From positions 57,897-121,896 of the forward strand of contig NZ_JASBRG010000007.1 in NCBI RefSeq assembly GCF_029961145.1: a stretch of DNA of 64,000 bases. The letters are read 5' to 3'. Positions 5,442-63,645 of the stretch are shown piece by piece. A program made the position numbers and the translations under genes. Position 1 is the stretch's first letter. Every line of letters starts with the position of its first letter. Below the pieces are notes generated by a model that saw only the letters and a list, made by a program, of their open reading frames with translations, was not told the origin of the DNA and did not search any database. The stretch is from Pinibacter soli (GTDB lineage: Bacteria > Bacteroidota > Bacteroidia > Chitinophagales > Chitinophagaceae).

Positions 5442-5442
5442 A

Positions 5443-5816
5443 AATTAAGAATTAGGAATTAAGAATTGTTTCTGTGTTGCAGGCGAATAAAAATATATAA
5501 TCTCTACGCATTGTAAAAGTTGTCGAGGCCTTCGTTTCTCACGTGCATGTGACCTTCCAATTAAGAAAATTCAAACTAAAGAATCTTAATTCCTAATTCG
5601 ATGTCGTTTAGTTAAGCAACTTTTCAATTACATGGTTGCTATGTCCAGGAAAGAAAGACTGCTTGTCATCGGGGCGAAGGAGGGATCTGTGTGATTGTTT
5701 ACGCATAGTGTTCGTTAGTGAGGCCCAGATCCCTCGTTCCTTGGGATGACAAATGAGATGCTTTTGTTTTTTCAAACACCTTAAATAAACGACATTGAAT
5801 TCCTAATTCTTAATTG
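5443..5816. repeat. Inverted-repeat element (GAATTAGGAATTA family) carrying an inserted MITE-like element
   Basis: The left arm at 5443-5467 reiterates AATTAAG/AATTAGG directly after the esterase stop. The matching TTAATTCCTAATTC arm is at 5582-5599 and again at 5798-5816, with a 195-bp element (5601-5795) between the two copies. The right end abuts the stop codon of the minus-strand Fnr-like gene. This accounts for the whole gap; no other gene is seen. Confidence 0.75.
5601..5795. mobile_element. MITE-like element, copy 1 (terminal inverted repeats ATGTCGTTTAGTTAAG)
   Basis: The 195-bp element begins ATGTCGTTTAGTTAAG and ends CTTAAATAAACGACAT; these termini are inverted repeats matching at 15 of 16 positions. 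Inside is a second inverted repeat around GTCATC...GGAGGGATCTG and CAGATCCCTC...GATGAC. It is about 93% identical, in opposite orientation, to 33311-33507. It has no coding capacity. The direct repeat AATTCCTAATTC on both sides may be a target duplication, although the host arm is itself repetitive. Confidence 0.7.
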
Positions 5817-6490
5817 TTCACAAATCCCCTCAGCTTCTTTGCATTATTAATCTTAATGCTCTTGCCTGAAGTCGTGATGATTTTTTCCTGTAACAGTTCC
5901 GTAAAGAATTTGAATACCGTTTCATAAGTGGAACCCGCATAAGAAGCAATGTCCTGGCGCGTAATGGCTACTGCAATAAATTTATCCTTATTCAATCCGA
6001 ATATTTCCTGCATCTCCAACAGCAATTCTGCAATGCGACCCTTTACATCCATATGTGCGAGATTGCGCATGCGGCGCTCGGCTTTTTTCAATTCTGCTGC
6101 ATACAACTGCATCATTTTATAAGTGAAAGAAGGATTGGTTTTAAATGTCGCTTCAAGAAAATCGTTTGTAATAAAGCATGCCTTACAATCTTCCAATGTT
6201 GTCGCTGAGATAGGATAAATATCATTGTCAACCAGGGCTCGATGCCCCAAAACATCACCGGCTTTTGCAAAGCGGATGATGAGCTCTTTATTGTCTACCC
6301 ATTGTTTATGCACTTTTACAAAGCCCTCGTAAATAAAGTAAATGCCTTTTACGGCATCGCCTTCGGCGAAAATTGTTTCACCGCGTTTAAAGGAATAAGT
6401 GGTTTTCTTCACACTGATTGCGTCGCGCCATTCGGGCATGCAATGAATGCAGAGAAAGCAATTTTCTATATCACATTTAGATACTTGCAT
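5810..6490 (-). CDS. Crp/Fnr-family transcription regulator with N-terminal cysteine cluster
   Basis: This 226-residue regulator has a cyclic-nucleotide-binding-like beta-roll (roughly residues 30-140, with RGETIFAEGD and GDVLGH) and a C-terminal winged helix (TRQDIASYAGSTYETVFKFF). The N-terminus has Cys6, Cys11, Cys14 and Cys17, a CX4CX2CX2C cluster, plus a central pair in LEDCKAC. Such cysteines in Fnr proteins hold an oxygen-sensing Fe-S cluster, so redox or oxygen sensing is likely but not proved. The recognition helix lacks the classical ExxSR of E. coli FNR. It is divergent from the CLC gene. Confidence 0.85.
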   Translation of the reverse strand: MQVSKCDIENCFLCIHCMPEWRDAISVKKTTYSFKRGETIFAEGDAVKGIYFIYEGFVKVHKQWVDNKELIIRFAKAGDVLGHRALVDNDIYPISATTLEDCKACFITNDFLEATFKTNPSFTYKMMQLYAAELKKAERRMRNLAHMDVKGRIAELLLEMQEIFGLNKDKFIAVAITRQDIASYAGSTYETVFKFFTELLQEKIITTSGKSIKINNAKKLRGFVNN

Positions 6491-6516
6491 GGATCAATAA
6501 TAAGTTTTTTTTGCAA

Positions 6517-6676
6517 GCAGATGACGCTGATTTAGCAGATGGGCGCTGATTTTTTTAATATTAATACCTGAATCATTGAATCATTGAGGAGTCGAATTAG
6601 TAAGAGGTCGATTTAATTTTACTGCTTCCTTAGCAGAAAGAAATCAGCGCCCATCTGCCAAATCAGCGTCATCTGC
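6517..6676. repeat. Inverted-repeat element (CAGATGACGCTGATTT family)
   Basis: The left arm 6517-6552 (GCAGATGACGCTGATTTAGC...) pairs with 6641-6676 over 36 bases with only a few mismatches, separated by an 88-base spacer. It lies in the divergent gap between the Fnr-like regulator and the CLC gene. Confidence 0.8.
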
Positions 6677-6709
6677 GTGCCATCAAATCTCAAATCAAAA
6701 AATGTTTAC

Positions 6710-6743
6710 AAATCATCATAATCATGAAGATCTGCGTTCCGTT
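6710..6743. repeat. Solitary right arm of the GGAACGCAGATTTTCATGAT family
   Basis: AATCATCATAATCATGAAGA followed by TCTGCGTTCCG matches the right arms of complete elements at 53310, 56204 and 60368, but no left arm is found upstream. It is probably a half element left by deletion or partial copying. Confidence 0.6.
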
Positions 6744-6841: not shown

Positions 6842-8509
6842 ATGAAAAGTGACAGTATACCTGTAGCGCCATCGCTAAACGTACCCTATGGAAAACAAAA
6901 AAAGCTTAAGACTGAAGTAGTTAACAAACGTGTTTTGTACCTTGCTGTTCAGGCAATTGTAAATGCCGTCATCATTGGATTAATTGCACGTCTCCTCGTT
7001 TACCTGATCAATTTTGTAACCAACATCGCTTTCTACGGAAAGTGGTCTATCCAACCCGCTTCTCCTGCAGGACATCATTTGGGAATGGCTGTGTTGCTCG
7101 TTCCTATTATCGGCAGCATCATTGTTGGTATAATGGCCCGTTACGGATCAAAAGCCATTCGTGGCCATGGCATCCCCGAGGCAATGGAAAAAATTATTCT
7201 TGAGGAGAGCCGTATTCCGCCAATCATTACTTTTCTGAAACCTTTATCCGCCGCCATTTCAATCGGTACCGGTGGTCCTTTTGGCGCCGAAGGTCCGATC
7301 ATCGCAACTGGTGGTGCATTCGGTTCTGTTACAGGTCAATGGATGCACATTTCATCTACGGAAAGAAAGATCATTCTGGCTGCCGGAGCTTGTGCTGGTA
7401 TGTCAGCCATCTTCGGAAGCCCGCTGGCAGCCGTTTTGCTGGCTATCGAATTGCTGTTGTTTGAATTTTCTCCAAGATCAATCATCCCCGTAACGCTTGC
7501 CTGTATCACAGGTGCGGGCATGCACATACTTTTATTTGAGAGCAGACCGGTGTTTGAAATGCCAAACATTCCTGCTCCGTCAGACACTGCATTGATCGTG
7601 TACGTTGTCTTTGGCCTGATCGTTGGAGTTGTTGCCAGTTTTGTTTCGAAGTCTGTGTATGCAGTGGAAGATCTGTTTGAGAAATTGCCCATCCACTGGA
7701 TGTGGTGGCCGGCGATCGGCGCTGTGGCGGTAGGTGTTGTAGGATATTTTGCCCCTGTTACAATGGGCGTTGGTTATAGCAATATTCAAAATTTATTAAC
7801 TGGCAGCTTGCCTTTGCAAATGTTGCTGGTATTGTGCTTCCTTAAATATATATCATGGGTTATTGCGCTGGGCAGCGGTACTTCCGGTGGTACACTTGCG
7901 CCATTGTTTACCATTGGAGGTGCGCTCGGTGCATTGTTGGGCACTTATGCATTGCAACTGTTTCCTTCATTGGGTATTAACGTGGCAACCGCTGCATTGA
8001 TCGGCATGGCAGCTATGTTTGCAGGTGCGTCACGTGCATTGCTAACATCCATTGTGTTTGCACTGGAAACAACTGGGCAAAGCAATGGATTGCTTCCGTT
8101 GATCGCGGCTTGTATTGCGGCGTACGCAATCTCTTTCTTTATGATGAAAGAAAGTATAATGACGGAAAAGATCCACAGAAGGGGGGTAAAAACGCCCAAT
8201 GCTTACGAGCCTGATGTGTTGCAGCAAACGAAGGTTCAGGTGCTCATGTCTCCGGCTCTGCAAGACCACCGCGGTAATTTTTATGTGCATATGTCGGATG
8301 ATATAGCGGTTGCTGCGGAGATAATGGGTAAGTACAACACTGACTCTTTGATTGTTTTAAACGATAACGACGTCGCTGAGGGAATCATTACATCCCGCGC
8401 AATCCTGCAATTCTACAGCAAGGAAAGAGCAAAGACTCATCGCTACGAGTCGCCGGCAAGAACCAGAAGGATTATGGTGAGAGGAAGGAAGCTGTTTCTC
8501 AGGAACTAG
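6842..8509 (+). CDS. CLC-family chloride transporter or channel with C-terminal CBS-like region
   Basis: The 555-residue membrane protein has the three CLC selectivity signatures: GHGIP (108-112), GAEGP with the gating Glu150 (148-152), and GGTLAP further on. After the transmembrane core a C-terminal region (MSPALQDHRGNFYV ... GIITSRAILQ) resembles half of a CBS pair and probably regulates the pore. The residue aligned with the internal proton glutamate of E. coli CLC-ec1 appears to be Leu (AIELLLFEF), so proton coupling is uncertain. An Fnr-like regulator is divergent upstream. Confidence 0.9.
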   Translation: MKSDSIPVAPSLNVPYGKQKKLKTEVVNKRVLYLAVQAIVNAVIIGLIARLLVYLINFVTNIAFYGKWSIQPASPAGHHLGMAVLLVPIIGSIIVGIMARYGSKAIRGHGIPEAMEKIILEESRIPPIITFLKPLSAAISIGTGGPFGAEGPIIATGGAFGSVTGQWMHISSTERKIILAAGACAGMSAIFGSPLAAVLLAIELLLFEFSPRSIIPVTLACITGAGMHILLFESRPVFEMPNIPAPSDTALIVYVVFGLIVGVVASFVSKSVYAVEDLFEKLPIHWMWWPAIGAVAVGVVGYFAPVTMGVGYSNIQNLLTGSLPLQMLLVLCFLKYISWVIALGSGTSGGTLAPLFTIGGALGALLGTYALQLFPSLGINVATAALIGMAAMFAGASRALLTSIVFALETTGQSNGLLPLIAACIAAYAISFFMMKESIMTEKIHRRGVKTPNAYEPDVLQQTKVQVLMSPALQDHRGNFYVHMSDDIAVAAEIMGKYNTDSLIVLNDNDVAEGIITSRAILQFYSKERAKTHRYESPARTRRIMVRGRKLFLRN

Positions 8510-8712
8510 GAATTAGAAATTCATTCTGTGTAACATAACGAAGATGGCCTTTATCACTATATTGTAAAAGGCATCGACAAGCACAACTGACAAACTGTTA
8601 CGCTGTCAGTTGTGTTTGTCGATGCCTTCTCGTTCTTTAAGACAGACAAATATTCATAACGAAACGGAGACCTTAGGAATTCCTAATTTCTAGCTCCTAA
8701 TTCCTAACTCCT
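8501..8712. repeat. Inverted-repeat element (GGAATTAG family) with an inner 25-bp hairpin
   Basis: The outer arms are AGGAACTAGGAATTAGAAAT from 8501 and AATTTCTAGCTCCTAATTCC up to 8712. They overlap the last codons of the CLC gene and of the convergent plsC. Inside is the separate long hairpin at 8568-8628. Confidence 0.75.
8568..8628. terminator. Very stable 25-bp hairpin between convergent genes
   Basis: 8568-8592 pairs with 8604-8628 (AAGGCATCGACAAGC... against ...TTTGTCGATGCCTT) with a single G-T wobble and an 11-base loop. It lies between convergent genes. The T-run after it is weak (CTCGTTCTTT), so it may be a terminator, an mRNA 3'-end stabiliser or simply the core of the surrounding element. 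Confidence 0.55.
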
Positions 8713-9972: not shown

Positions 9973-10265
9973 GAATTTCACGCAAAGACGCAAAGAGAAA
10001 ATCCAAGGGCGCAAAGAATTTCACGCGGCCAACACGGCGGAGCGGCGAGGCGGCGGTAAGTATGAATATTCATTTTTTTTCTGCATGTAAATGTTAACAA
10101 CAGTAAAGCAAGAAAATGCTAGTGAATTCATATCATCAACCATGCTTTGCGTCGCTGCTCCGCTGCGTTCGCTGCGAGAAACAAATCTCTGTGTGAAATT
10201 CTTTGCGTTCTTGGCTTTTATCTTTGCGCTTTTGCGTGAAACCGTTGCGCTTTTGCGTGAAATCC
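9973..10265. repeat. Inverted-repeat element (CGCAAAG family)
   Basis: The left arm from 9973 reads GAATTTCACGCAAAGACGCA and continues with more CGCAAAG words to about 10028. The right arm 10191-10265 has TTTGCG words in the opposite sense. Inner GC-rich segments (GCGGAGCGGCG... and ...CGCTGCTCCGC) also pair. It fills the gap between DUF4258 and mtaB and creates a false N-terminal extension for mtaB. Confidence 0.75.
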
Positions 10266-10289: not shown

Positions 10290-11564
10290 ATGTCAGCAAG
10301 TAAATCAGTCGCATTTCACACATTGGGTTGTAAACTAAACTTTTCTGAAACCTCTTCTATTTCACGAATGATGGAGAATGAAGGTTTTGTGAAGAAGGAA
10401 TTCGACGACATTGCCGATGTTTACGTGATCAACACCTGTTCCGTAACCGATAATGCTGACAAAGAATGCCGCCAGATCGTGCGTCGCATTCAGCGCAAAT
10501 CTCCTGAAAGCCTGGTTATTATCACCGGCTGTTATGCACAATTGAAACCCAAAGAAATTTCTGAAATTCCGGGCGTTGACCTTGTGCTGGGAGCTGCTGA
10601 AAAATTCAATATTGCCAAGCATATTGCGGAACTCAGCAAAGGCGATTCTGCCAAAATCTCCAGTTGCGATATTGAAGAAGTTACCGGTTTCAATTCTTCT
10701 TTTTCTATAAACGATCGTACACGTACTTTCCTTAAAGTGCAGGACGGTTGTGATTATACCTGCTCATTTTGTACTATACCAATGGCCCGCGGTAAAAGCC
10801 GTAGTGATAGTATAGCAAATGTGATCCGCAATGCGGAAGAACTGGCTGCTAATGGTGTAAAAGAGATCGTGCTTACAGGTGTGAACCTCGGCGATTTTGG
10901 TAAAGGTCCGGATGGCAATAAAAAAAACGAAGAAAGCTTTTTTGATCTGGTACAGGCGCTTGATAAAGTGGAAGGTATTCAGCGCTACAGGATCTCATCT
11001 ATTGAGCCTAATTTGCTGACAAATGACATCATCACGTTTGTGGCAAACAGCGATAAGTTCATGCCGCACTTTCATATTCCATTGCAAAGCGGTAGCAATA
11101 AAACACTGGGTCAAATGCGTCGCCGCTACAAACGAGAATTGTACGCGGAACGAGTGCATCTTATTAAAACATTGATGCCGCATTGCGCGATTGGTGTGGA
11201 TGTGATCGTGGGCTTCCCAGGCGAGACTGGCGAAGATTTTAAAGAAACATTTGATTTCCTGCATTCTCTTGATGTGTCATATTTGCACGTGTTCACTTAC
11301 TCCGAACGCGACAATACACACGCACTTACTATAAACCCCGTTGTTCCTGTCAATGTGAGATATGAGCGTAATAAAACCTTGCGCAATCTGTCTTACATGA
11401 AAATGCAATACTTCACCGAACAACATGCCGGTCAAACAAGAAAAGTATTATTTGAGGGCCACGAAAAGAACGGCATGATGGAAGGCTATACCGACAACTA
11501 CATCAAGATTTCTGCACCGTTTAATGCTGAGTGGGTGAATGGGATTGTTGACTGGAAAGTCTAG
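10290..11564 (+). CDS. mtaB: tRNA (N6-threonylcarbamoyladenosine-37) methylthiotransferase MtaB
   Basis: This 424-residue radical-SAM enzyme adds the methylthio group to t6A37 of ANN-decoding tRNAs. The N-terminal MTTase domain has the three cluster cysteines Cys14 (LGCKLN), Cys50 (NTCSVTD) and Cys81 (GCYAQ). The radical-SAM motif CDYTCSFC gives Cys154, Cys158 and Cys161, and the C-terminus is TRAM-like. An upstream in-frame start at 10203 exists, but it lies inside a CGCAAAG repeat and upstream of the promoter box, so I use the ATG at 10290, which gives the family-typical MSASKSVAFHTLGCKLN start. Confidence 0.92.
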   Translation: MSASKSVAFHTLGCKLNFSETSSISRMMENEGFVKKEFDDIADVYVINTCSVTDNADKECRQIVRRIQRKSPESLVIITGCYAQLKPKEISEIPGVDLVLGAAEKFNIAKHIAELSKGDSAKISSCDIEEVTGFNSSFSINDRTRTFLKVQDGCDYTCSFCTIPMARGKSRSDSIANVIRNAEELAANGVKEIVLTGVNLGDFGKGPDGNKKNEESFFDLVQALDKVEGIQRYRISSIEPNLLTNDIITFVANSDKFMPHFHIPLQSGSNKTLGQMRRRYKRELYAERVHLIKTLMPHCAIGVDVIVGFPGETGEDFKETFDFLHSLDVSYLHVFTYSERDNTHALTINPVVPVNVRYERNKTLRNLSYMKMQYFTEQHAGQTRKVLFEGHEKNGMMEGYTDNYIKISAPFNAEWVNGIVDWKV

Positions 11565-11570
11565 ATGACG

Positions 11571-11718
11571 AATTTGAAAATTTGAAAATTTGAAAATGCT
11601 TCAGGTGCGTCTTCGCAAGTGATCTTCATTGTTCTTGCAATGCAAAAATGATTTAAATTAATAATGACACCTGCACAGACTGAATTTTCAAATCTTCAAA
11701 TTCCCACATTTTCAAATT
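11571..11718. repeat. Inverted-repeat element (TTTGAAAA family)
   Basis: The left arm 11571-11597 has three AATTTGAAA units. The right arm 11683-11718 has TTTTCAAATCTTCAAA and a second unit. The right arm supplies the TAA stop of the convergent GNAT gene. An inner CAGGTG/CACCTG pair extends the fold. Confidence 0.75.
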
Positions 11719-12274
11719 ATTCTCTTGGCTTGACCTGGGAATATATCACTGTATCTTCAAACACACCCTCCAGACTGAGTTTGTTTTCTTTAAAGTAGGC
11801 GTCGCGTGTGAAGCCCTTCTTTTCCAGCAATTTTGCAGATGGTATATTATTGGGGTGAATAGTTGCTTCGATGGAATGTAAATTCATTTTTTCGTAACCA
11901 TATTTTACCACAGCGTCAAAGGCTTCCTGTACTATTCCTTGCCGGTGGTATTTGCCGTTAAGCATGTAACCGATCTCGGCACGATAATCTTCTTTGTACA
12001 GATTTACAAAACCTATCATGCCCAGGAGAAACGGATTGTTTTTTAGAAATATACCCCAGTTGATGCCTTCATTGCTTTTCCTTCTTCTGGCGATTAATTC
12101 TATCAGACTAGTAACGTCCTGCAGGTTGGTAGCAACCGGACGGGAAATGTATTTCATCAATTCTTTATCCCTCCTTATTTCAAACAAGGCTTCTGCATCA
12201 TTGGCTGTGATTTCTTTCAGCTCCAATCGTTCAGTAACGAGCACGGGAAATGGCTCGAAGTTTACCTGCATCAT
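11717..12274 (-). CDS. GNAT N-acetyltransferase, RimJ/RimL type
   Basis: The protein has the ribosomal-protein-alanine acetyltransferase layout: TERLELKEITANDAEALFEI near the start, then GMIGFVNLYKEDYRAEIGYML, and the acetyl-CoA loop region RQGIVQEAF followed by HPNNIPSAKLLEKKGF. It would transfer acetyl from acetyl-CoA to an amine; the substrate is unknown. The frame extends upstream to 12340, but that part is encoded by a CACAGAGG repeat arm, so I use the ATG at 12274 (MMQVNFEPF; 12271 is equally possible). Its stop codon lies in the neighbouring repeat arm. Confidence 0.82.
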   Translation of the reverse strand: MMQVNFEPFPVLVTERLELKEITANDAEALFEIRRDKELMKYISRPVATNLQDVTSLIELIARRRKSNEGINWGIFLKNNPFLLGMIGFVNLYKEDYRAEIGYMLNGKYHRQGIVQEAFDAVVKYGYEKMNLHSIEATIHPNNIPSAKLLEKKGFTRDAYFKENKLSLEGVFEDTVIYSQVKPRE

Positions 12275-12336: not shown

Positions 12337-12422
12337 CCACAGAGGCACGGAATGCACTGAGTTTTATGAAGAGAAATTAACGTAAACCTTAGTAAAGCTC
12401 AGTGCCTTCTGTGCCTCTGTGG
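12337..12422. repeat. Inverted-repeat element (CACAGAGG family)
   Basis: CCACAGAGGCACGGAATGCA from 12337 pairs with the segment ending CTGTGCCTCTGTGG at 12422, about 29-base arms with a short spacer of about 28 bases. It sits between two minus-strand genes. Confidence 0.8.
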
Positions 12423-12904: not shown

Positions 12905-13022
12905 GAATTTGAAAAACTTGAAGTAGTTCAAGAAATGGAAAATTGAAAGTTGAAAGTTGAATTGCTGTGGATCAGGAAAGCCTAATTGAATTAGAACAAT
13001 CATTTTCAATTTTCAAATTATT
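12905..13022. repeat. Degenerate inverted-repeat element (TTTGAAAA / GTTGAAA family)
   Basis: GAATTTGAAAAACTTGAA and GGAAAATTGAAAGTTGAAAG lie on the left; TTTTCAATTTTCAAATTATT on the right overlaps the stop of the Crp-like gene. Pairing is weaker than in other elements. Confidence 0.5.
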
Positions 13023-13614: not shown

Positions 13615-13763
13615 AACGTGGATTTTCATGATTGTCATGATTTGTTAAGATCTTTTGATTTGGGATTAAAACTTCAGATTATTGGCGGAGAAACCCTGTT
13701 GAAAAATCTCACCCAAAATTTCAAATCATAACGAATCTTCATCACTCTAAAATCTGCGTTCCT
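13615..13763. repeat. Inverted-repeat element (CAGATTTTCATGATTGTCATGAT family)
   Basis: The left arm 13615-13665 (GATTTTCATGATTGTCATGA, then TTTGTTAAGATC) pairs with 13712-13763 (TCAAATCATAACGAATCTTC ... AATCTGCGTTCC). It lies just upstream of the Crp-like gene. Confidence 0.75.
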
Positions 13764-13961: not shown

Positions 13962-13988
13962 AGCCTTTCGCTTGCGGAGGGCTTTTTT
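13962..13988 (+). terminator. Rho-independent terminator after the mini-ORF
   Basis: AGCCTTTCGC and GCGGAGGGCT (13962-13983) pair over ten positions including G-T wobbles; with the innermost pairs open this leaves a small loop. A run of six T follows on the plus strand. A smaller hairpin CTGACC-TTG-GGTCAG lies just before. Confidence 0.75.
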
Positions 13989-13994
13989 ATTTTT

Positions 13995-14162
13995 AACCGC
14001 AAAGGGCGCAAAGGATGCGCAAAGAGAACGAAGGGTTTCTAATCGAATACGTTTTGCCTAAAAGAAGAAAGGAGTGTTTATGCTTCTATCAATCTCTCTT
14101 GCTGTTCTCCAATGTTGTAAAAGCTTTGCGTTCTTTGCGCAACCTTTGAGTTCTTTGCGGTT
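13995..14162. repeat. Inverted-repeat element (CGCAAAG family)
   Basis: AACCGCAAAGGGCGCAAAGG at 13995 pairs with the segment ending GAGTTCTTTGCGGTT near 14162. It starts directly after the mini-ORF terminator and ends just before the stop of the convergent MATE gene. Confidence 0.8.
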
Positions 14163-14172
14163 TAAAAAAAGA

Positions 14173-15576: not shown

Positions 15577-15580
15577 GGAG

Positions 15581-15703
15581 AATTAATAATTAATAGTTAT
15601 TGCACCATACGTACAATGCAAGCTGCCGTACCATCGAATTTTTGAGGATAACATTCAACAACGAATGTAGCCCTCTTAATTATTAATTCTTAATTATTAA
15701 TTG
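15581..15703. repeat. Inverted-repeat element (AATTAATAATTAA family)
   Basis: AATTAATAATTAATAGTTAT at 15581 pairs with TAATTATTAATTCTTAATTA (15677 onward). It lies between the start of the MATE gene and the lipoprotein gene, so it is upstream of both. Confidence 0.7.
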
Positions 15704-16832: not shown

Positions 16833-17996
16833 ATGTCTAACATTTTGATCATCGATGATGAAAAGGCCATACGGAAAACCTTAGGCGAAATTCTTTCTTA
16901 CGAAGGATACAAGATTGAAGAAGCGATGGACGGCGAAGAGGGCTTGAAAAAATTTAAGGAAAAGCCTTTCGACGTTGTTCTTTGCGATATTAAAATGCCC
17001 AAGATCGATGGCATTGAGTTTCTCGAAAAAGCAAGGGAAATAAATACAGATGTTCCTATCATAATGATCTCTGGTCACGGCAATATAGAGACTGCAGTTG
17101 AAGCTGTGAAAAAAGGTGCGTTTGATTATATTTCCAAGCCACCGGATCTGAACAGGTTGCTTATTACGATTCGCAATGCGATGGATAAAACTTCTCTGGT
17201 TACTGAAACCAAAGTGCTGAAACGGAAGGTGAGCAAGGTGCAGGAAATCATTGGAGACGCTGCGCCCATTCAACGTATAAAGGACACAATCGATAAAGTG
17301 GCACCAACAGAGGCCCGTGTACTTATCACAGGTGAAAACGGAGTGGGTAAAGAACTGGTGGCAAGATGGCTGCATGAAAAAAGCAACCGTGCTTCCGGCC
17401 CTTTGGTAGAAGTAAACTGCGCTGCTATCCCCGGAGAGTTGATCGAAAGTGAATTGTTTGGTCACGAAAAAGGTTCATTTACTTCCGCCATCAAACAGCG
17501 CATAGGAAAGTTTGAGCAGGCGCAAGGCGGTACGCTCTTCCTGGATGAAATAGGAGATATGAGTCTTAGCGCACAGGCAAAAGTATTGCGTGCCTTGCAG
17601 GAAGCAAAAATTACCCGCGTAGGTGGGGATAAAGAAATTTCAGTTGACGTACGTGTGATCGCGGCGACCAACAAGGATTTGCTGAAAGAAGTGGAAGAGA
17701 AAAATTTCCGTCTCGACTTGTACCATCGTTTGAGTGTCATTCTCATTCATGTTCCTTCACTGAACGAGAGACGTGATGACATTCCTCTCTTAACTGATAA
17801 GTTTCTCGAAGACATTTGCGCCGACTATGGTATCGCAAAAAAAGCCATTGACAAGGAAGCGCTTGACGAATTAAAGAACTACAACTGGAGCGGTAACATC
17901 CGCGAATTAAGAAACGTTGTAGAGCGCCTTGTTATTCTTTCCGGTAAAACAATTACGAGGGAAGATGTGGTGAATAATGTGGTGCCGAGGAGGTAA
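16833..17996 (+). CDS. NtrC-type response regulator lacking the C-terminal DNA-binding domain
   Basis: The 387-residue protein joins a receiver domain (phospho-acceptor Asp52 in LCDIKMP, Lys102 in ISKPP) to a sigma-54-type AAA+ domain. Walker A is GENGVGKE (167-174) and Walker B TLFLDEIGD is near 234-242. The loop that contacts sigma-54, normally GAFTGA, reads GSFTSA (214-219). The protein ends at NVVERLVILSGKTITREDVV, without the Fis-type helix-turn-helix that NtrC proteins carry, so it is about 60-80 residues shorter than usual. It may act without specific DNA binding or through a partner. No histidine kinase is adjacent. The stop codon is part of the following repeat arm. Confidence 0.88.
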   Translation: MSNILIIDDEKAIRKTLGEILSYEGYKIEEAMDGEEGLKKFKEKPFDVVLCDIKMPKIDGIEFLEKAREINTDVPIIMISGHGNIETAVEAVKKGAFDYISKPPDLNRLLITIRNAMDKTSLVTETKVLKRKVSKVQEIIGDAAPIQRIKDTIDKVAPTEARVLITGENGVGKELVARWLHEKSNRASGPLVEVNCAAIPGELIESELFGHEKGSFTSAIKQRIGKFEQAQGGTLFLDEIGDMSLSAQAKVLRALQEAKITRVGGDKEISVDVRVIAATNKDLLKEVEEKNFRLDLYHRLSVILIHVPSLNERRDDIPLLTDKFLEDICADYGIAKKAIDKEALDELKNYNWSGNIRELRNVVERLVILSGKTITREDVVNNVVPRR

Positions 17997-18126
17997 TTAA
18001 TAATTAACAATTAATAGGTGCTTCAGCAATAATCGAAGCACGATTGATTTTACGTTCAACAATTAATAGAGCCACATTCTTGAGTGAATGCGGCTCTATT
18101 AATTATTCTTTATTAATTATTAATTT
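17994..18126. repeat. Inverted-repeat element (AATTAATAATTAA family)
   Basis: The left arm starts at the TAA stop of the response regulator (TAATTAATAATTAACAATTA). The right arm (ATTAATTATTCTTTATTAAT...) runs to 18126 and contains the last codons and stop of the convergent antiporter gene. An inner 12-bp stem (18068-18079 with 18086-18097) holds one mismatch. Confidence 0.8.
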
Positions 18127-20611: not shown

Positions 20612-20714
20612 GTTGCTTGTCATCCCGACGAAGGAGGGATCTGGGTGCTTTTTTTATGTGGCATGTTGGCCAGTGTTAAACCCAGATCCCTCCTTCGTCG
20701 GGATGACAAGCAAC
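20612..20714. repeat. Perfect 35-bp inverted repeat, core of the MITE-like family
   Basis: 20612-20646 and 20680-20714 are perfect inverted copies containing GTCATCCCGACGAAGGAGGG, with a 33-base loop. The same core lies inside the two elements at 5601 and 33311, but here the outer terminal repeats are absent. It lies between the antiporter start and the end of the PepSY gene. Confidence 0.8.
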
Positions 20715-44469: not shown

Positions 44470-44559
44470 AATGACTGAATAACTGAATAACTGAGTAGTT
44501 CATTTTCGATTTTGCACTTCGACTATCGACAACTCAGTTATTCAGTTACTCAGTCATTT
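44470..44559. repeat. Inverted-repeat element (ACTGAATA family)
   Basis: ATGACTGAATAACTGAATAA at 44471 pairs with the segment TCAGTTATTCAGTTACTCAG ending near 44555; arms are about 27 bases with a short spacer. It follows the receptor stop. Confidence 0.85.
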
Positions 44560-44716
44560 CCCTTCACAGTAAAATCTCTTCTTTCTTCAGTTATTCTTCT
44601 GGATTAACTAGCTTATTCAAACAAAGCCTTGTATCTTTTCTGCATAACTCGTTGTTCAAAAAAATAATGCCCGTCTTGCGTGCCTTATTTTAAAAACATT
44701 CAATTTGCAAAAACAT

Positions 44717-46216: not shown

Positions 46217-46313
46217 ATAAACTGAATGGACTGAATAACTGAGTGGTTCAATTTCAATTTCCCATGCCGAATATCAACCATTCAGTTATTCAGTCCATTC
46301 AGTTTATTCAGTC
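46211..46313. repeat. Near-perfect inverted-repeat element (ACTGAATA family)
   Basis: 46211-46248 and 46276-46313 match as inverted copies at 37 of 38 positions (GACTGAATAAACTGAATGGA ...), with a 27-base spacer. It lies between convergent genes, and the left arm provides the stop codon of the GT39-like gene. Confidence 0.9.
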
Positions 46314-46318
46314 ATTTG

Positions 46319-52305: not shown

Positions 52306-52350
52306 GCGGTCAAAAAACAACAAGTTTAAGTTGAAGCACCGTGCGGGGCC

Positions 52351-52497
52351 AATTAATAATTAATAAAGAATAATTAATAGGGCTGCCGTCATTGAAAAAA
52401 TGCAGCATATCCAAGGCCCTTTGATACCGCCAGATAGGTGAAATGTCAAAGTTTTAGAGAGTCGAAATATTAATTATCAATTATTAATTATTAATTC
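52351..52497. repeat. Inverted-repeat element (AATTAATAATTAA family)
   Basis: AATTAATAATTAATAAAGAA at 52351 pairs with the TAATTATTAATTCG end near 52497. Its left arm is almost identical over about 34 bases to the inverse of the right arm of the element at 54351-54496, so members of this family share sequence beyond simple AT richness. Confidence 0.8.
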
Positions 52498-52543
52498 GCC
52501 TTGCAAAATTTTACTAAATAGAACAGAATAAAAATACATTCCT

Positions 52544-53308
52544 ATGTTTCGAATAGACGATAAACATGCCGTTATAACAGGAGCAGGAAGCGGGATCGGG
52601 AAAGCAGTAGCATTGGTGTTTGCCAAACAAGGCGCCATTGTGCACGTGCTGGATGTGCAGGAAAATGCAGCGCTGCAAACAGTAAATGACATTACATCTG
52701 CCGGAGGACGGGCACAGGCTCATGTGTGCGACGTAACTAATCAAAAGCAGGTTACAGAGTTATTCAATTCAATTGAAAAGGTTGACATACTGGTGAATAG
52801 TGCCGGTATATCTCACATTGGTAGTGCCGACAATACCAGCGAAAGCGATTTTGACAAAGTGTATTCTGTAAATGTGAAAGGCGTTTATAATTGCTTGTAT
52901 GCCGCCATTCCGCGAATGAAGACGAACAAAGGTGGTGTGATTGTAAACATGTCATCCATTGCTGCAGTAGTTGGTCTAGCGGACAGGTTTGCGTACTCCA
53001 TGAGTAAAGGCGCGGTGTATGCAATGACGATGTCTGTTGCAAAAGATTATCTTGCAGATAATATCCGTTGTAATTCCATTGCACCGGCAAGGGTTCATAC
53101 ACCATTCGTAGATGGATTTTTGCAAAAGAATTATCCAGGTCAGGAAAAAGAAATGTACGAGAAACTATCTAAAACACAGCCGATCGGCCGCATGGGTAAA
53201 CCAGATGAGATCGCTAATCTCATTTTGTTCCTTTGCAGTGACGAAGCGGGTTTCATCACCGGCTGCGATTACCCGATAGATGGTGGCTTTATAAAACTAA
53301 ATACATAA
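52544..53308 (+). CDS. SDR-family oxidoreductase
   Basis: The 254-residue classical short-chain dehydrogenase has the NAD(P) motif TGAGSGIG (12-19), NSAGIS, Ser at 137-138 (NMSSIAA), Tyr151 and Lys155 (YSMSKG), and the C-terminal GFITGCDYPIDGGF. It oxidises a hydroxyl group of an unknown substrate. An FAH-family hydrolase follows on the same strand. The pair matches the last steps of non-phosphorylating L-fucose degradation (2-keto-3-deoxy-L-fuconate dehydrogenase and diketo-acid hydrolase), which would suit the GH95 fucosidase elsewhere in the window; this is inference. Confidence 0.9.
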   Translation: MFRIDDKHAVITGAGSGIGKAVALVFAKQGAIVHVLDVQENAALQTVNDITSAGGRAQAHVCDVTNQKQVTELFNSIEKVDILVNSAGISHIGSADNTSESDFDKVYSVNVKGVYNCLYAAIPRMKTNKGGVIVNMSSIAAVVGLADRFAYSMSKGAVYAMTMSVAKDYLADNIRCNSIAPARVHTPFVDGFLQKNYPGQEKEMYEKLSKTQPIGRMGKPDEIANLILFLCSDEAGFITGCDYPIDGGFIKLNT

Positions 53309-53309
53309 G

Positions 53310-53480
53310 ACGGAACGCAGATCTTCAAGATTGTCATGATTCGCTATGATTTTTTTTGAAGAAATCATAGCAAATCACAGACTCTCTAAATTTGTGTTTG
53401 ATTCAATAATAAAATTTAGAACGTAGTATAAAAAGAGGAATCATAACAAATCATGACAATCTTGAAAATCTGCGTTCGCT
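53310..53480. repeat. Inverted-repeat element (GGAACGCAGAT...TGTCATGAT family)
   Basis: CGGAACGCAGATCTTCAAGA then TTGTCATGATTC on the left pairs with AATCATGACAATC... and AATCTGCGTTC on the right (53436-53480). A second short palindrome GCTATGATTT/AAATCATAGC is near 53343-53370. It separates the SDR and FAH genes. Confidence 0.8.
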
Positions 53481-53498
53481 CTCTCAAAAAATCATTCA

Positions 53499-54353
53499 AT
53501 GAAACTTATTCGTTACGGTAGTTTTGAACAGGAAAAAACAGGTGTTATCATTAATGGTGTACAATACGATACATCTGATTTTGGTGAAGATTACAATGAG
53601 AAATTTTTCGCTACAGATGGTATTAAACGTCTTGCAGAATTTGTAGAAAAAAACAAAGGTTCTTTAAAAGAAATTCCTGCGGGAAGCCGTCTTGGTTCGC
53701 CATTGGCAAGACCTTCTAAAATTGTGTGCATCGGATTGAACTATGCCGACCATGCGAAAGAAACCGGCGCCGCGTTGCCTCCGGAGCCTGTAATTTTTAT
53801 GAAATCAACTACTGCATTATGCGGGCCATATGATGAGGTGGTTATTCCAAAGAATTCTGTAAAAACAGACTGGGAAGTGGAACTTGCAGTTGTGATTGGC
53901 AAAAAAGCTTCCTATGTAGAAGAAAAAGATGCGATGGATTACGTTGCAGGATATTGCCTTCACAATGATATCAGCGAAAGGGAATTTCAATTGGAAAGAA
54001 ACGGTACTTGGGATAAAGGTAAAGGTTGCGACACTTTCGCCCCGATGGGCCCATTCCTTGCCACTAAAGATGAAATTAAAGATGTAAACAATTTGCGTCT
54101 CTGGTTAACACTCAATGGCAAATCCATGCAGGACGGAAATACTTCCAACTTCATCTTTAATGTGGCGTTTGTTATCGCTTACGTCAGCAAGTTTATGACC
54201 TTGCTTCCGGGCGATATCATTTCCACAGGAACACCTGCCGGTGTAGGTTTAGGCATGAACCCAAATGTATACGTTAAGCCAGGAGATGTAATGGAGCTGG
54301 GGATCGATGGATTGGGCGTTTCGAGACAAGTGGCGAAAGCGTGGACGAAGTAA
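53499..54353 (+). CDS. Fumarylacetoacetate hydrolase family protein
   Basis: The 284-residue enzyme has the FAH fold: an N-terminal domain, then KIVCIGLNYADHAKETGA, metal-binding acidic residues in DWEVELAVVIG and NDISERE, and GDIISTGTPAGVGLGM. The family hydrolyses or isomerises beta-diketo or 2-hydroxy-diene acids. Relatives of this length in Bacteroidota act in sugar-acid pathways such as L-fuconate breakdown. It sits downstream of the SDR gene. Its TAA stop is the first word of the next repeat arm. Confidence 0.9.
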   Translation: MKLIRYGSFEQEKTGVIINGVQYDTSDFGEDYNEKFFATDGIKRLAEFVEKNKGSLKEIPAGSRLGSPLARPSKIVCIGLNYADHAKETGAALPPEPVIFMKSTTALCGPYDEVVIPKNSVKTDWEVELAVVIGKKASYVEEKDAMDYVAGYCLHNDISEREFQLERNGTWDKGKGCDTFAPMGPFLATKDEIKDVNNLRLWLTLNGKSMQDGNTSNFIFNVAFVIAYVSKFMTLLPGDIISTGTPAGVGLGMNPNVYVKPGDVMELGIDGLGVSRQVAKAWTK

Positions 54354-54496
54354 TTAATAATTAATAAAGGATAATTAATAGGGTGGCATTCGTTATTGAA
54401 TGCCACTTTTTTTATGATTAAACTGTTCATTCATCAGTTGCGGATGCGCTTAAATCGCGGACTGCCTTATTAATTATTCTTTATTAATTATTAATT
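54351..54496. repeat. Inverted-repeat element (AATTAATAATTAA family) with inner terminator
   Basis: TAATTAATAATTAATAAAGG starts at the FAH stop codon; the right arm TTAATTATTCTTTATTAATT ends near 54496. Inside is a true terminator at 54383-54413. Confidence 0.82.
54383..54413 (+). terminator. Rho-independent terminator of the FAH gene
   Basis: GTGGCATTC-GTTATT-GAATGCCAC is a perfect 9-bp stem followed by seven T on the plus strand, inside the inverted-repeat element. Confidence 0.85.
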
Positions 54497-56195: not shown

Positions 56196-56203
56196 TAGAA
56201 CTA

Positions 56204-56348
56204 GGAACGCTGATTTTCATGATCGTCATGATTAGTTATGATCTTTTGATTTGAGTTACCAGGTTTTTAAGGGTTTAGTAATGGCTGACACACGAAAACC
56301 CAATTTTCAAATCATAATAATCATGAAAATCTTGAAAATCTGCGTTCC
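56204..56348. repeat. Inverted-repeat element (GGAACGC...TTTTCATGAT family)
   Basis: GGAACGCTGATTTTCATGAT then CGTCATGATTAG on the left pairs with CAAATCATAATAATCATGAA and ATCTGCGTTCC on the right. It lies between lepB and cdd on the same strand. Confidence 0.8.
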
Positions 56349-56367
56349 GTTCTCTTAATGTATTATC

Positions 56368-57865: not shown

Positions 57866-57866
57866 T

Positions 57867-57956
57867 AATGGAAAATCGCAAGTGGAAAATTGAAAATGGT
57901 CGGTAGGGCGAATGGCTATAATTTTTCCAATAATTTTCCACTTTCAATTTTCCATT
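57867..57956. repeat. Inverted-repeat element (GGAAAATTGAAA family)
   Basis: AATGGAAAATCGCAAGTGGA then AAATTGAAAATGG on the left pairs with TTTTCCACTTTCAATTTTCC ending near 57955. It lies directly after the porin-like gene. Confidence 0.78.
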
Positions 57957-57973
57957 AAATCAAGCCTTATCAT

Positions 57974-60189: not shown

Positions 60190-60231
60190 GGCGGCGTGTC
60201 GTCGGGTGTAGGGACAAACTTACAAATTATT

Positions 60232-60524
60232 AATTTGAAAATTTGAAGATTTGAAAACGAAATGTGCGAGATTTTTTAATGAATCGACTGTTTTGTTATA
60301 CCATGGTTAAAAGGATGGATGAGAGGAGTATCGTTTAAGGTTTAAGGTGTGGCAGCGAAATGTGAGAGAAGGAACACAGATTTTCATGATTGTCATGATC
60401 GGTGGTGATTTGAGATTTCAAATTTGAAGTCTTCTCAAATCTAAAAATTCAAATCATCAATAACCATGACAATCATGAAAATCCGCGTTCCTTCTCATTT
60501 TCAAATTTCCACATTTTCAAATTA
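60232..60524. repeat. Nested inverted-repeat elements (TTTGAAAA outer, CAGATTTTCATGAT inner)
   Basis: The outer arms are AATTTGAAAATTTGAAGATT at 60232 and TTTCCACATTTTCAAATTA ending near 60524. The inner element at 60368-60496 has AGAAGGAACACAGATTTTCA then TGATTGTCATGAT, and the inverse copy ending GCGTTCCTTCT. This fills the gap between the T9SS protein and the UbiD gene. Confidence 0.78.
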
Positions 60525-60527
60525 ATC

Positions 60528-60539: not shown

Positions 60540-62462
60540 ATGGCATATAAAAATCAGCAGGAATTTATACAAGCGCTTGAAAGTGCAGGAGAGTTGGTTC
60601 GTATCAAAGAATATGTAAATCCGGCACTTGAGATAGCAGAGATAACAGACAGGATAAGCAAAAGCGGCAACGGCGGGAAGGCATTGTTGTTCGAAAATAC
60701 AGGCTACGATTTTCCCGTACTCATGAATGCTTACGGCAGTGAAAAACGGATGTGCATGGCGCTTGGCGTAAATCACCTCGATGATGTTGCGAAGGAAATA
60801 GAGGGACTATTTAAAATGCTTTCCGCTCCGAAGGAAAATATTATCGACAAACTGAAACTGTTACCAAAGCTGAGCCAGTTTGCCAGTTGGATGCCCAAAG
60901 TAAAAAACGGGAGAGGTGAGTGCCAGGAAGTTGTAATGACGACTCCCGATATTACCAAACTGCCGGTGATCACTTGCTGGCCGAAAGATGGCGGTCCGTT
61001 TGTAACGCTGCCTGTTATTCATACAAAAGATCCCAACACGAATGCAAGAAACGTAGGCATGTATCGCATGCAGGTGTTTAGCCCTACACTTACGGGCATG
61101 CATTGGCATAAGCATAAAGTGAGTGCAAAACATTTCAGCGAATATAAAAAGCTGAATAAAAGAATGCCTGTGGCCGTGGCCCTTGGCGGAGACCCTGCGT
61201 ATGCATACAGCGCCACTGCTCCATTGCCGGAGAATGTAGATGAATACATGCTGGCAGGTTTCTTACGTAAGAAAAAAGTGGAACTGGTAAAATGTATCAC
61301 ACAGCCCGAAATAGAAGTGCCCGCTGACGCAGACTTCATCATTGAAGGCCATGTTGATCCGGGTGATGAATTGATCTGGGAAGGTCCTTTTGGCGATCAT
61401 ACAGGGTATTATTCATTGCCTGATTGGTATCCGCGCTTTCACATCACTGCTATTACACATAAAAAGAATGCGGTTTATCCCGCAACAATCGTGGGTATTC
61501 CTCCACAGGAGGATGCATGGTTAGGGAAGGCCACAGAAAGAATATTTCTTGCACCGATCAAAATGACAATGGTGCCTGAGATCATTGACATGGACATGCC
61601 GATTGAAGGTGTGTTCCATAATTTGGTGATTGCACAAATTGAAAAATCTTATGCGGGCCAGGGACAAAAAGTAATGAACGCCATGTGGGGCGCTGGGCAA
61701 ATGATGTTCAACAAAATTTTGGTACTGGGAGACCAGCACGTTAAAATACAGGATTACAAAGCACTGGCGAAATATGTATTTGCCAATTTAGATGTGGCAA
61801 ACGATGTGATCATCAGCACAGGTCCGATGGATGTGCTTGATCACAGTTGTAACAAACTTGGATTTGGTGGCAAGATCTGCATTGACGGTACAAAAAAAAT
61901 GGAAGAAGAAATTGAAGATTGCAACTGGTTGACGCCGACTGCATTTGCTTTGAATGAAAATTCTCTTCTTCAATTGTATACGGAAATTAGAAGCGTGAAC
62001 ACTGCGCTGCTGAAACATGGCGTTGGATGCATTATTGTTTCTATCGAAAAGAATAGAAGGCATCATGTAAAAGAAATGCATGAACAGCTTTGCAAACTTC
62101 CTGAAATGGAAGGCATCAAAATGATTTTATACGTTGAACATACAGTGGATGCAAAAGATCTGCCAACCGCATTGTGGCGCTTCTGCAACAATCTTGATCC
62201 GAAACGTGATTCGTTTTTAGTGAAAAACGCTTCAATTACGCAAGCTGGTAAAACCTTTGCCTGTCTTGGTCTTGATGGCACACGTAAAACCAAAGAACTT
62301 GATGGTTTTCAGCGTGACTGGCCGAATATTATCGTTGCCGCAGATGAAACCATCAAGTCAGTAGATGAAAAATGGAACAAGCTTGGTTTAGGCGCATTTC
62401 TTTCATCGCCATCTTTGAAGTACAAAGGACAAATGTATGGCGAAGAAGCTGTGGTGGAGTAG
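60540..62462 (+). CDS. UbiD family decarboxylase (menaquinone type)
   Basis: The 640-residue prenylated-FMN-dependent decarboxylase starts QQEFIQALESAGELVRIKEYVNPALEIAEITDR. The active-site region runs through ARNVGMYRMQVFSPTLTGMHWHKHK, PVAVALGGDPAYAYSATAPLP, EGPFGDHTGYYS and IIDMDMPIEGVFHNL. Length and sequence fit the longer form found in Bacteroidota, assigned to menaquinone synthesis (decarboxylation of dihydroxynaphthoate derivatives) or general aromatic acid decarboxylation; I cannot separate these. No UbiX partner lies in the window. Confidence 0.9.
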   Translation: MAYKNQQEFIQALESAGELVRIKEYVNPALEIAEITDRISKSGNGGKALLFENTGYDFPVLMNAYGSEKRMCMALGVNHLDDVAKEIEGLFKMLSAPKENIIDKLKLLPKLSQFASWMPKVKNGRGECQEVVMTTPDITKLPVITCWPKDGGPFVTLPVIHTKDPNTNARNVGMYRMQVFSPTLTGMHWHKHKVSAKHFSEYKKLNKRMPVAVALGGDPAYAYSATAPLPENVDEYMLAGFLRKKKVELVKCITQPEIEVPADADFIIEGHVDPGDELIWEGPFGDHTGYYSLPDWYPRFHITAITHKKNAVYPATIVGIPPQEDAWLGKATERIFLAPIKMTMVPEIIDMDMPIEGVFHNLVIAQIEKSYAGQGQKVMNAMWGAGQMMFNKILVLGDQHVKIQDYKALAKYVFANLDVANDVIISTGPMDVLDHSCNKLGFGGKICIDGTKKMEEEIEDCNWLTPTAFALNENSLLQLYTEIRSVNTALLKHGVGCIIVSIEKNRRHHVKEMHEQLCKLPEMEGIKMILYVEHTVDAKDLPTALWRFCNNLDPKRDSFLVKNASITQAGKTFACLGLDGTRKTKELDGFQRDWPNIIVAADETIKSVDEKWNKLGLGAFLSSPSLKYKGQMYGEEAVVE

Positions 62463-62463
62463 A

Positions 62464-62662
62464 GAGCACACAGATGACACAGATTTAGCAGATTAACACT
62501 GATTTTTTTGATTTGAGATTTGAAATTTAAGATTGGCGGCAGCTCTCCAATCTCAAATTTCAAATCTCAAATTGTTTTAGCAAAGTGCCCGAATATACAA
62601 TACGATAATGCAGTCAGAAAGAAATCAGTGTAAATCCGTCTAATCCGTGTCATCTGTGTGCT
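62464..62662. repeat. Nested inverted-repeat elements (CAGATGACACAGATTT outer, TTTGAGATTTGAAA inner)
   Basis: The outer arms AGCACACAGATGACACAGAT (62464) and TAATCCGTGTCATCTGTGTG (ending near 62661) pair over about 43 bases. Inside, ATTTGAGATTTGAAATTTAA pairs with CAAATTTCAAATCTCAAATT (62549-62574). The right outer arm encodes the last codons of the convergent TraB-like gene. Confidence 0.82.
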
Positions 62663-63591
62663 ATTGCTACTTGCGTGTTCTTATTTGCTGGTGCATGCTT
62701 AACCGGTGTTAAGACATAACCCTGTTTTTTCAACAAATTGATCACGCCCAAATCGCCCGGAAGATGCGCCGCGCCTACTGCAAAGAGACATGGCGTAGAT
62801 TGAATGATATCATTAATTTTTATTGCCCAGTTTTTATTGCGGTTGTATAAAAGCAGATCGAGTGATTGGTTGATGTCGTCTTCCTTCATTACCATTTCCT
62901 GAATCTTGGAAAGGTCCTGACTTCTGTAGACATCTTCCAGATCGGTATCATCATTACTTTTTACATCAATGCTATCAATCATCTTCACGAGTTGATCAGC
63001 TTGCATTTTGTAAGGAATACTGTCAAAAATACTTGCCTGGTATGCCGCCGTTTCTAATCCTTTTATCTCCTTTCCATTTTTCTTTGCATAAGTCATGATC
63101 ACTTGCTCCATACCATCTTTTTGCGGGCAATCCATTTTTTGTTCCGACAAAAGCGATGCGATAAAATAAGGCTTAAATTTTTCCATCATGCTGAATGGGA
63201 TCATGGAAGGGTTCTTTGTAAAATAATCCTTCACTTTTTTGTAGTCACCCTCGCTCAACAGGTCCGCTAGCTTTTGATTGCCATTCATGCGAATGTACCT
63301 CAGTGCGCCCATCATCTCCATCATGTTGTCCATGTCAATTTCGAAATACACTTTGTCCGTCGTTCGTATAACATATTCCAGCGAGTCGCTCAATTGTGCA
63401 TCATCCGAACATAAAATGTGCATGGTGCCAAAAAGATAAGATGGATGCGAAAGCCCATGACCGCTTATTTTCCAAAGCAATGAATTGGCCAAAGGCTCAC
63501 TTTTGGCGACGGCAGATTTATTGGTAGTTTTCTGTGCGTACAGTCCCAGAGCAATGGCACAGAAAAGGATGAATGCGGTCAGTTTTTTCAT
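62650..63591 (-). CDS. TraB/GumN family exported protein
   Basis: The 313-residue protein has a signal peptide (LTAFILFCAIALGLYAQ) and the TraB/GumN landmarks: SYLFGTMHILCSDD with the GTMH motif, VYFEIDMDN, GKEIKGLETAAYQ and the end motif CLFAVGAAHLPGDLGVINLLKKQGY. The fold is related to EreA/ChaN-type hydrolases (the Tiki superfamily), so a metal-dependent protease-like activity is possible, but members are largely uncharacterised. The last codons (A-H-R-stop) are encoded by the repeat arm. Confidence 0.88.
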   Translation of the reverse strand: MKKLTAFILFCAIALGLYAQKTTNKSAVAKSEPLANSLLWKISGHGLSHPSYLFGTMHILCSDDAQLSDSLEYVIRTTDKVYFEIDMDNMMEMMGALRYIRMNGNQKLADLLSEGDYKKVKDYFTKNPSMIPFSMMEKFKPYFIASLLSEQKMDCPQKDGMEQVIMTYAKKNGKEIKGLETAAYQASIFDSIPYKMQADQLVKMIDSIDVKSNDDTDLEDVYRSQDLSKIQEMVMKEDDINQSLDLLLYNRNKNWAIKINDIIQSTPCLFAVGAAHLPGDLGVINLLKKQGYVLTPVKHAPANKNTQVAIAHR

Positions 63592-63610
63592 ACTTCTAAT
63601 TTACTGAATT

Positions 63611-63645
63611 TGGAACGCAGATTTTGAAGATTATTATAATTTGAG
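63611..63645. repeat. Solitary left arm of the GGAACGCAGATTTT family
   Basis: TGGAACGCAGATTTTGAAGA followed by TTATTATAATTTGAG matches left arms of complete elements; no right arm is seen before the next gene. Confidence 0.55.

Follow-up and report, generated by a model that had tools for sequence, protein, structure and literature searches.

What are the hairpins that occupy most of the gaps between genes in a 64-kb stretch of the Pinibacter soli genome (5.9 Mb, G000; the stretch is hereafter called the window)? An original prediction, made from the sequence alone, had described about thirty long inverted repeats there, built on a single architecture from reiterated short words that differ between families, and had regarded the whole hairpin as the unit that is made and spread. 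Comparison with two genomes of the same genus (G001 and G002) and with more distant relatives places genes for the 23S rRNA intervening-sequence protein (IVP, PF05635) between arms of the same kind. We consider it likely, with a probability of roughly 0.6, that the hairpins with reiterated arms belong, in compact non-coding form, to the intergenic elements of the intervening-sequence (IVS)/S23 type or are close cousins of them. Three features go beyond what had been predicted: an IVP gene carried by full-length members, a period of 7 nt and the way in which the arms fit stop codons.

Inverted repeats were searched by local alignment in 500-nt windows and tested at a strength score of at least 18. 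At this score, 32 repeats were found, 30 of them intergenic, compared with 1–5 in ten rounds of shuffling that kept dinucleotides and treated each gap and each gene separately; at scores of at least 22, the figures were 23 and 0–1. A repeat of at least 18 is contained in 25 of the 41 intergenic gaps longer than 30 nt, one of which (3717) holds a plain terminator-like hairpin, and weaker hairpins scoring 15–16 occupy three further gaps (12867, 15577 and 40412). The predicted number and intergenic location are borne out, as is the common architecture carried by different words; the density of one per about 2 kb holds for the window (about 1 per 2.1 kb) but other stretches are sparser. Repeats of at least 20 number 24 in the 64-kb window and 44 in 200 kb taken as ten other 20-kb stretches of the same genome, so the window lies above the genome average. 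RNA folding of eight hairpins, one of them of the CATCCCGA class, gave z-values of -3.1 to -14.8, as stem-forming terminal inverted repeats. The genes of the window are ordinary: nine of ten scanned match common Pfam families above cut-off, and the tenth (HD domain) falls narrowly below. The elements lie between protein genes, and an Rfam scan of the window returned no rRNA.

The words themselves are of several kinds. Period-7 words (AATTAAT, GTTGAAA, GAATTAG and GTTATGA) stand beside words of period 8–9 (TTTGAAAA, ACTGAATA, CACAGAGG, CGCAAAG, CATGATT and CAGATGAC) and long arms without reiteration (TCATCCCGA... and GAGACGC), with the CATCCCGA and GAGACGC hairpins apparently forming a class apart. 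The predicted list of words is thus a mixture of classes. Reiteration exceeds that of more than 95% of shuffled arms in 16 of the 30 intergenic repeats and of more than 99% in 12, so that by that measure roughly half have weak reiteration only. The predicted fixed polarity survives with small corrections: in nearly all aligned arms the words point inward, so that the left arm reads them forward and the right arm as reverse complements; GAATTAGG and AATTAAT each show a single exception, and GAGACGC is mixed.

The arms are closely fitted to the ends of genes. Among the 28 intergenic repeats of at least 19, arms at the stop end of a gene are separated from it by a median of 0 nt, and 26 of 30 lie within 20 nt of it or overlap it; arms at the start end have a median of 101 nt, with 4 of 26 within 20 nt. 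GTTGAAA, AATTAAT and GAATTAG each contain a stop triplet and, as 7 = 3n+1, three copies give stops in each frame. Stops in all three frames occur in 61 of 92 reiterated arms read inward and 25 of 92 read outward (18/46 and 4/46 for window repeats of at least 22). The rates in shuffled arms (0.30 inward, 0.08 outward) indicate that this asymmetry is part base composition and part reiteration.

S23/IVP is an orphan four-helix-bundle family of obscure function, named from insertions in rRNA. The P. soli genome has three PF05635 genes, all outside the window, and all three lie between such arms (scores 31, 19 and 23): AATTAAT arms at L004, AAGTCAA-type arms between two nuo genes at L005, and GTGGAAATATG-type arms between sdhA and sdhB at L006, the gene names being assigned by inspection. 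PF05635 is present in 32 of 39 genomes (this genome and relatives), at 0–14 copies each and 137 matches in total. Seventy-two of these, mostly better-scoring, were taken and 71 scored, L025 being dropped at a contig end; controls were positions shifted by 700 nt (142, mostly coding) and flanks swapped among loci. The median arm score was 20 at the 71 loci, as against 10 for shifted positions and 11 for swapped flanks. Fifty of the 71 loci beat all 142 shifted controls (maximum 16), and a score above 16 was reached by 12/12 scored loci of the genus and 38/59 elsewhere. Reiterated flank segments number 87/143 at IVP loci versus 7/143 in controls, with best periods of 7 (46), 14 (21) and 8 (11), so that 67/87 have a period of 7 or 14. 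A better-matched control, small GIY-YIG open reading frames (ORFs) of the same genomes, gave reiterated arms at 0/22, against 35/71 IVP loci by the same measure.

The association extends to other phyla. Named genome contigs, many of them metagenome bins, hold at least 80 loci; of the 80 taken, 74 could be scored, and 24 of these lie above all 143 controls and 34 above their 99th percentile. Reiterated flank segments (70/148) again have best periods of 7 (47) or 14 (18), 65 in total. Passing records include Acidobacteriota, Treponema, Planctomycetales, Thiobacillus, Desulfosarcina and Micavibrio; non-passing ones include Rickettsiales (L145), Ignavibacteriales (L173) and Limnohabitans (L176). 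L145 and L176 are contigs of metagenome-assembled genomes with a Bacteroidota-like IVP–fadA junction and may be mis-binned. In 12 named genomes, 30 of 86 places were taken and 19 lie above all 59 controls; 12 of these places had already appeared in the preceding set, and of the other 18, which are new, 11 pass. In the complete Planctomycetales genome CP043547, a sound record, three of four IVP loci were examined and scored 22, 21 and 47, and at Ignavibacteriales locus L222 an IVP has a 9-mer-like arm (by inspection). Four short 23S motifs were found in 0/269 loci, in a weak scan with no positive control. At one IVP locus (L065, G013), the inward-read arms are CGTTTCACGATTCACG, the reverse in polarity of the GTGAATC words of relatives.

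The best evidence that the word families, 8- and 9-mers included, form one system is the exchange of hairpins with IVP elements at the same sites. At 3/3 tested IVP sites of G002 (L058, L062 and L066; G001 counterparts L061, L067 and L064), the P. soli genome holds 92–129 bp between matching flanks, compared with 507–662, and all three replacements are hairpins of other word families: CACTAAGG at the GTGAATC site, GTTGTTAG at the GTTGAGA site and CATGATT at the AATTGAAA site, the last with an apparent remnant of the old right arm outside. Coding and non-coding elements of the genus also share arms (AATTAAT, GTTGAAA and GTTGAGA). Arm 12-mers of 6/12 genus IVP loci (L004, L062, L064, L066, L067 and L075) occur at 78–321 per 100 kb in at least one genus genome, compared with 0–3 per 100 kb elsewhere (a 360-kb sample of other genomes) and 0–10 in G006 and G009.

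The two arms change together. At 24 IVP loci upstream of a fadA-like gene, own arms average 14.9 and arms from different genomes 10.7, and 0/20000 permutations of the right arm reach the observed sum; at the four IVP loci of the argC–argD junction, 1682/20000 did so, which is not significant. Several families of Bacteroidota carry an IVP element 5' of the fadA-like gene, the words differing among them, as an old shared junction or a repeated target. Orthologous gaps were compared across the window genome, G001 and G002, two simple terminator gaps being excluded. An element is present in at least two species at 23 gaps, and at 11 of these the word family, judged by inspection, differs (at one, gap 24619, the window element is weak, with a score of 14). 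At these 11 sites, species pairs with differing words average 15–41 for own arms and 4–19 across species, both arms and mostly the loop too being replaced together. Whole elements also come and go: G001 is without the first element of gap 13588, and the window is without an element at gaps 9451, 22096 and 48636, the last compared with G002 alone and the first scored in G002 and seen by eye only in G001. Arms that covary, gain and loss among relatives, and shuffles that fall short of the observed counts are the opposite of all three outcomes that had been named as refuting the original prediction.

Loops follow their own course. Between G001 and G002 the loop is inverted at gaps 9925 (forward score 7, reverse 73) and 22096 (forward 6, reverse 59), and the same arms enclose different loops at 54354. 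In G001, GTTGAGA forms unbroken runs of 16 (counterpart of gap 35644, L081) and 11 (gap 12867, L083) copies; both are one-sided, with the opposite right arms shorter and less regular, a sign of one-arm tandem expansion. Elements are nested at 25643, 60229 and 62458, and probably at 6503.

Several results weigh against kinship with IVP elements, or against the hairpin as a mobile unit. When flanks are swapped, only 34/71 loci of the relatives exceed the 99th percentile and 11/71 exceed every swap (16/74 exceed the 99th percentile in other phyla); this control is the stricter one because words resemble one another. At the fadA junction, the own right arm is top-ranked in 5/24 loci, and several loci are close relatives. 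Arm 12-mers of the six remaining genus IVP loci are near background, AAGTCAA slightly above it, and among the genus loci examined there is no IVP member for CACTAAGG, CGCAAAG, CAGATGAC, TTTGAAAA, CTGAATAA or CATGATT. Reiterated hairpins number 44 in 320 kb of the genus (80 kb of it chosen as syntenic with the window); six other IVP-bearing genomes have 2 in 180 kb and seven IVP-free genomes 0 in 280 kb, and hairpin abundance is not predicted by the presence of IVP. Inspection by eye of gaps 13588, 22096 and 9451, where arm ends are ill defined, revealed no target duplication. With arm words severely masked, loops of one family at different sites have a median score of 4, against 3 between families, and no pair reaches 12; because loops within one family are not clearly alike, the whole hairpin may, but need not, be the unit that is copied. 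IVP clade and word appear linked on the tree and the permutation tests disagree: 8/1000 (all) and 3/1000 (within genomes) by an alignment measure, 21/2000 and 480/2000 by a word measure, and 98/2000 and 171/2000 when orientation is disregarded. Pairs of high-identity IVPs have more similar words (0/2000), at a cut-off set after seeing the bins, and co-evolution of IVP and word is at most suggested. Lastly, we know of no catalytic activity of IVP.

TRAP binds repeated triplets and, by analogy, an IVP ring might bind word arrays. A model of one IVP (mean predicted local distance difference test score 95.8) matches XCC0516 (2gsc; template-modelling (TM) score 0.95) and BT_0352 (2rld), and resembles Avd (4dwl), a protein of diversity-generating retroelements (DGRs), with a TM score of about 0.8 and a Foldseek E-value of 0.11. 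The resemblance of IVP to Avd had already been pointed out in PMC10053308. The Xanthomonas protein is a homopentamer of four-helix bundles, and rRNA IVSs are stem-loops cut by RNase III, as stated in PMC4990558. A full-length member would consist of an inverted arm of reiterated, mostly 7-nt words, a PF05635 ORF and the complementary arm, and the Avd-fold ring would recognise the arms or the hairpin and help to insert, exchange or maintain elements. We think that IVP probably acts on the arms; movement is not shown. The hairpin may be tolerated because incoming translation would be stopped at once and the transcript would fold away, open to RNase III as in rRNA IVSs. As a guess, nested elements could be accounted for if a new element entered a hairpin at its tip and the outer one was later lost. 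A wider reading, which we think less likely than not, is an unrecognised class of exchangeable elements in many phyla: IVP, acting on inverted heptamer-word arms, would place hairpins at gene junctions and swap cassettes with no transposase or reverse transcriptase of its own, so that the long-noted excess of heptamers in bacteria (GGGAATC, perhaps TAACTGA) would be its footprint and the rRNA IVS its best-known special case.

23S rRNA IVSs with an S23p/IVP ORF are found in Leptospira, Coxiella and others. In PMC4990558, such an IVS is likewise formed by stem-forming terminal inverted repeats around an ORF of the same protein family, and is called a selfish element that takes the place of a small loop at a hairpin tip. 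The elements described here differ from it in lying between protein genes, in many copies, with reiterated-word arms and many non-coding members; the S23/IVP ORF inside is present at the IVP loci and in none of the window elements. No link of S23/IVP to dispersed repeats was found in the literature searched, subscription papers and preprints being outside the search. On this basis, the most fitting place for the class is among IVSs, as their intergenic variant, the non-coding hairpins working like that kind rather than belonging to it.

Other repeats share single features. GGGAATC heptamers are sense near stops and antisense near starts, as here, often form convergent inverted pairs (70 and 75 cases) and have generally no link to mobile elements (PMC4692102, Rehm et al.). 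Xanthomonas campestris also bears the IVP of known structure, XCC0516. TAACTGA heptamers (PMC4679880, MacGregor) are 7-nt intergenic words too but, in their main host, mostly precede start codons and are oriented forward; a single inverted pair is described. As far as their available text goes, the two papers do not tie IVP to heptamers. Tandem intergenic 7-nt words describe the period-7 families here and not those of period 8–9. As in miniature inverted-repeat transposable elements (MITEs), non-coding copies bounded by terminal inverted repeats occur alongside coding copies whose arms are the same; the hairpins differ in that no transposase was found inside, no target duplication was seen and loops are not clearly conserved. 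DGRs share the IVP fold through Avd (4dwl, 8ub7; PMC10053308) but the P. soli genome and G001 gave no PF00078 reverse transcriptase match (E <= 0.001), template repeats not being searched. Reverse transcription as a general need (telomerase-like synthesis of words) was set aside on the same result, PF00078 matching in 8/23 genomes, with four matches in G002; an enzyme since lost or acting in trans could still have served.

The original prediction had proposed to look for a RAYT-type enzyme, and such an enzyme is not supported. REPINs mobilised by a RAYT (TnpA-REP) transposase are, like these elements, dispersed intergenic hairpins of inverted pairs (PMC6006769), and the genome has three Y1_Tnp matches; L002 is flanked on either side, at up to 450 nt, by TTTGAAAA-type words, and L003 has a CATGATT arm next to it. 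None of the three genes is bracketed by word arms: in the test used for IVP, L001 and L002 score 10–12, the control level, and L003, although scoring 37, is bracketed by a different, REP-like (repetitive extragenic palindromic) palindrome, with the CATGATT arm outside it on one side. The arm structure differs as well, the word arms being arrays of 20–60 nt rather than short hairpins with a GTAG-type tag. RAYT mobilisation is accordingly very improbable, and RAYT and reverse transcriptase are both poor candidates. The palindromes GTAGGGGCGA...TCGCTCCTACGG, 3' of the L001 gene, and GCAAGGCTTGTAGCCTTGC, flanking the L003 gene, look like REP families of their own.

Two explanations dispense with a common mobile element. 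Under local slippage and template switching, words would expand in place, the opposite arm would be rewritten by hairpin-templated repair, the hairpins would be kept as terminators or RNA stabilisers, and IVP would simply prefer such places. The GTTGAGA runs of G001, the unconserved loops within families, the covarying arms and the sites common to several species all suit this account, but it does not readily provide for the same word families at unrelated sites across genome and genus, for an element wholly absent from one species (the first of gap 13588 in G001; gaps 9451 and 22096 in the window), or for the joint replacement of arms and mostly loop at 11/23 sites; we regard it as unlikely. 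Slightly more doubtful still is a mixed bag of unrelated MITE- or REP-like families that have the hairpin look alone in common, with their own partly lost enzymes and with IVP tied to a few heptamer families. In its favour, periods of 7, 8 and 9 stand beside long non-reiterated arms, and for the majority of octamer and 9-mer words the genus loci examined include no IVP member. A GIY-YIG gene between CATCCCGA arms (L233 and L234) also fits; such arms surround GIY-YIG at these two loci only, with a related palindrome in L258. The families nevertheless replace one another at shared junctions, where CACTAAGG and CATGATT hairpins even take the place of IVP elements, have polarity, stop-codon position and nesting in common, and at L222 a 9-mer-like arm accompanies an IVP. 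GIY-YIG as a second general cargo was rejected on the absence of reiterated arms from the small ORFs reported above, of which 7/22 score at least 18, versus 5/38 controls; eight long ORFs intended as further controls had too little flank and were left out.

The hairpins are collected in Table 1. The long non-reiterated arms of the TCATCCCGACGAAGGAGGGATCTGG hairpins (20612-20714 and 33306-33512) are the same that flank the small GIY-YIG gene at L233 (this genome) and L234 (G002). Two other small GIY-YIG ORFs (L235 and L239) lie beside or overlap tRNA-like repeated sequences. The sole Rfam match in the window is a thiamine pyrophosphate (TPP) riboswitch (RF00059, 70.9 bits) at 38824-38916 (+), just 3' of the AATTAAT hairpin 38673-38807.

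Table 1. Hairpins of the window, in window coordinates, strand not assigned; the last column gives the state in the relatives or the basis of the entry.
Position	Hairpin	Relatives or basis
5432..5815	GAATTAG-family compound element, inner TGTCATC-type repeat	scan; orthologous G001 site of same family
6503..6690	CAGATGAC, within or in place of left part of CATGATT element	CATGATT element complete in G001, G002
8501..8698	GAATTAG, convergent genes either side	AATTAAT element at G001 site
9976..10241	CGCAAAG	loop inverted, G001 vs G002
11557..11731	TTTGAAAA	family common to three species
12337..12422	CACAGAGG	CACTAAGG instead in both relatives
12930..13022	GTTGAAA, weak (score 15)	GTTGAGA array in G001
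13615..13760	CATGATT (score 17)	present in G002, absent from G001
13987..14170	CGCAAAG	family common to three species
15579..15702	AATTAAT (score 16)	family common to three species
17994..18119	AATTAAT, abutting two stop codons	GAATTAG element in G002
20612..20714	TCATCCCGACGAAGGAGGGATCTGG, long non-reiterated arm, probably separate class	CACTAAGG hairpin in gap in both relatives
25643..25827	CAGATGAC, CTGAATAA repeat nested inside	scan
31797..31901	GAGACGC, non-reiterated, probably separate class	scan
33306..33512	TCATCCCGA class, outer arms TTCAATGTCGTTT	scan
35633..35736	GTTGAAA	16 GTTGAGA in a run in G001
38673..38807	AATTAAT	GAATTAG element in G002
40413..40520	GTTATGA (score 16)	GTTGAGA in G001; AATTGAAA in G002
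42024..42212	CACAGAGG	small hairpin in G001; nested CACTAAGG/CACAGAGG in G002
44468..44560	CTGAATAA	loop inverted vs both relatives (by inspection)
46207..46317	CTGAATAA	RNA fold z -14.5
52342..52505	AATTAAT	family common to three species
53308..53482	CATGATT	same family in G001
54352..54496	AATTAAT	G001 arms alike, loop different
56197..56353	CATGATT	same family in G001
57866..57957	GTTGAAA/GTGGAAA	scan
60229..60526	TTTGAAAA outer arms enclosing complete CATGATT hairpin (60366-60496)	scan
62458..62671	CAGATGAC outer arms enclosing ATTTGAGATTTG hairpin (62511-62572)	scan

Filing the hairpins with intergenic IVS-type elements brings three poorly explained things under one testable idea: heptameric repeats between genes, the orphan family S23/IVP and the dense hairpins of a Bacteroidota genus. 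Should IVP bind the arms, then a very common bacterial repeat is driven or guarded by a protein with no known enzyme activity; should it not, some other reason is needed for gene and arms being so closely paired. In the stretch compared, the hairpins stand at many gene 3' ends and are exchanged between close species, and so may well shape the ends of mRNAs. Taken together, the results point to a single kind of genetic element that is widespread and has had little recognition.

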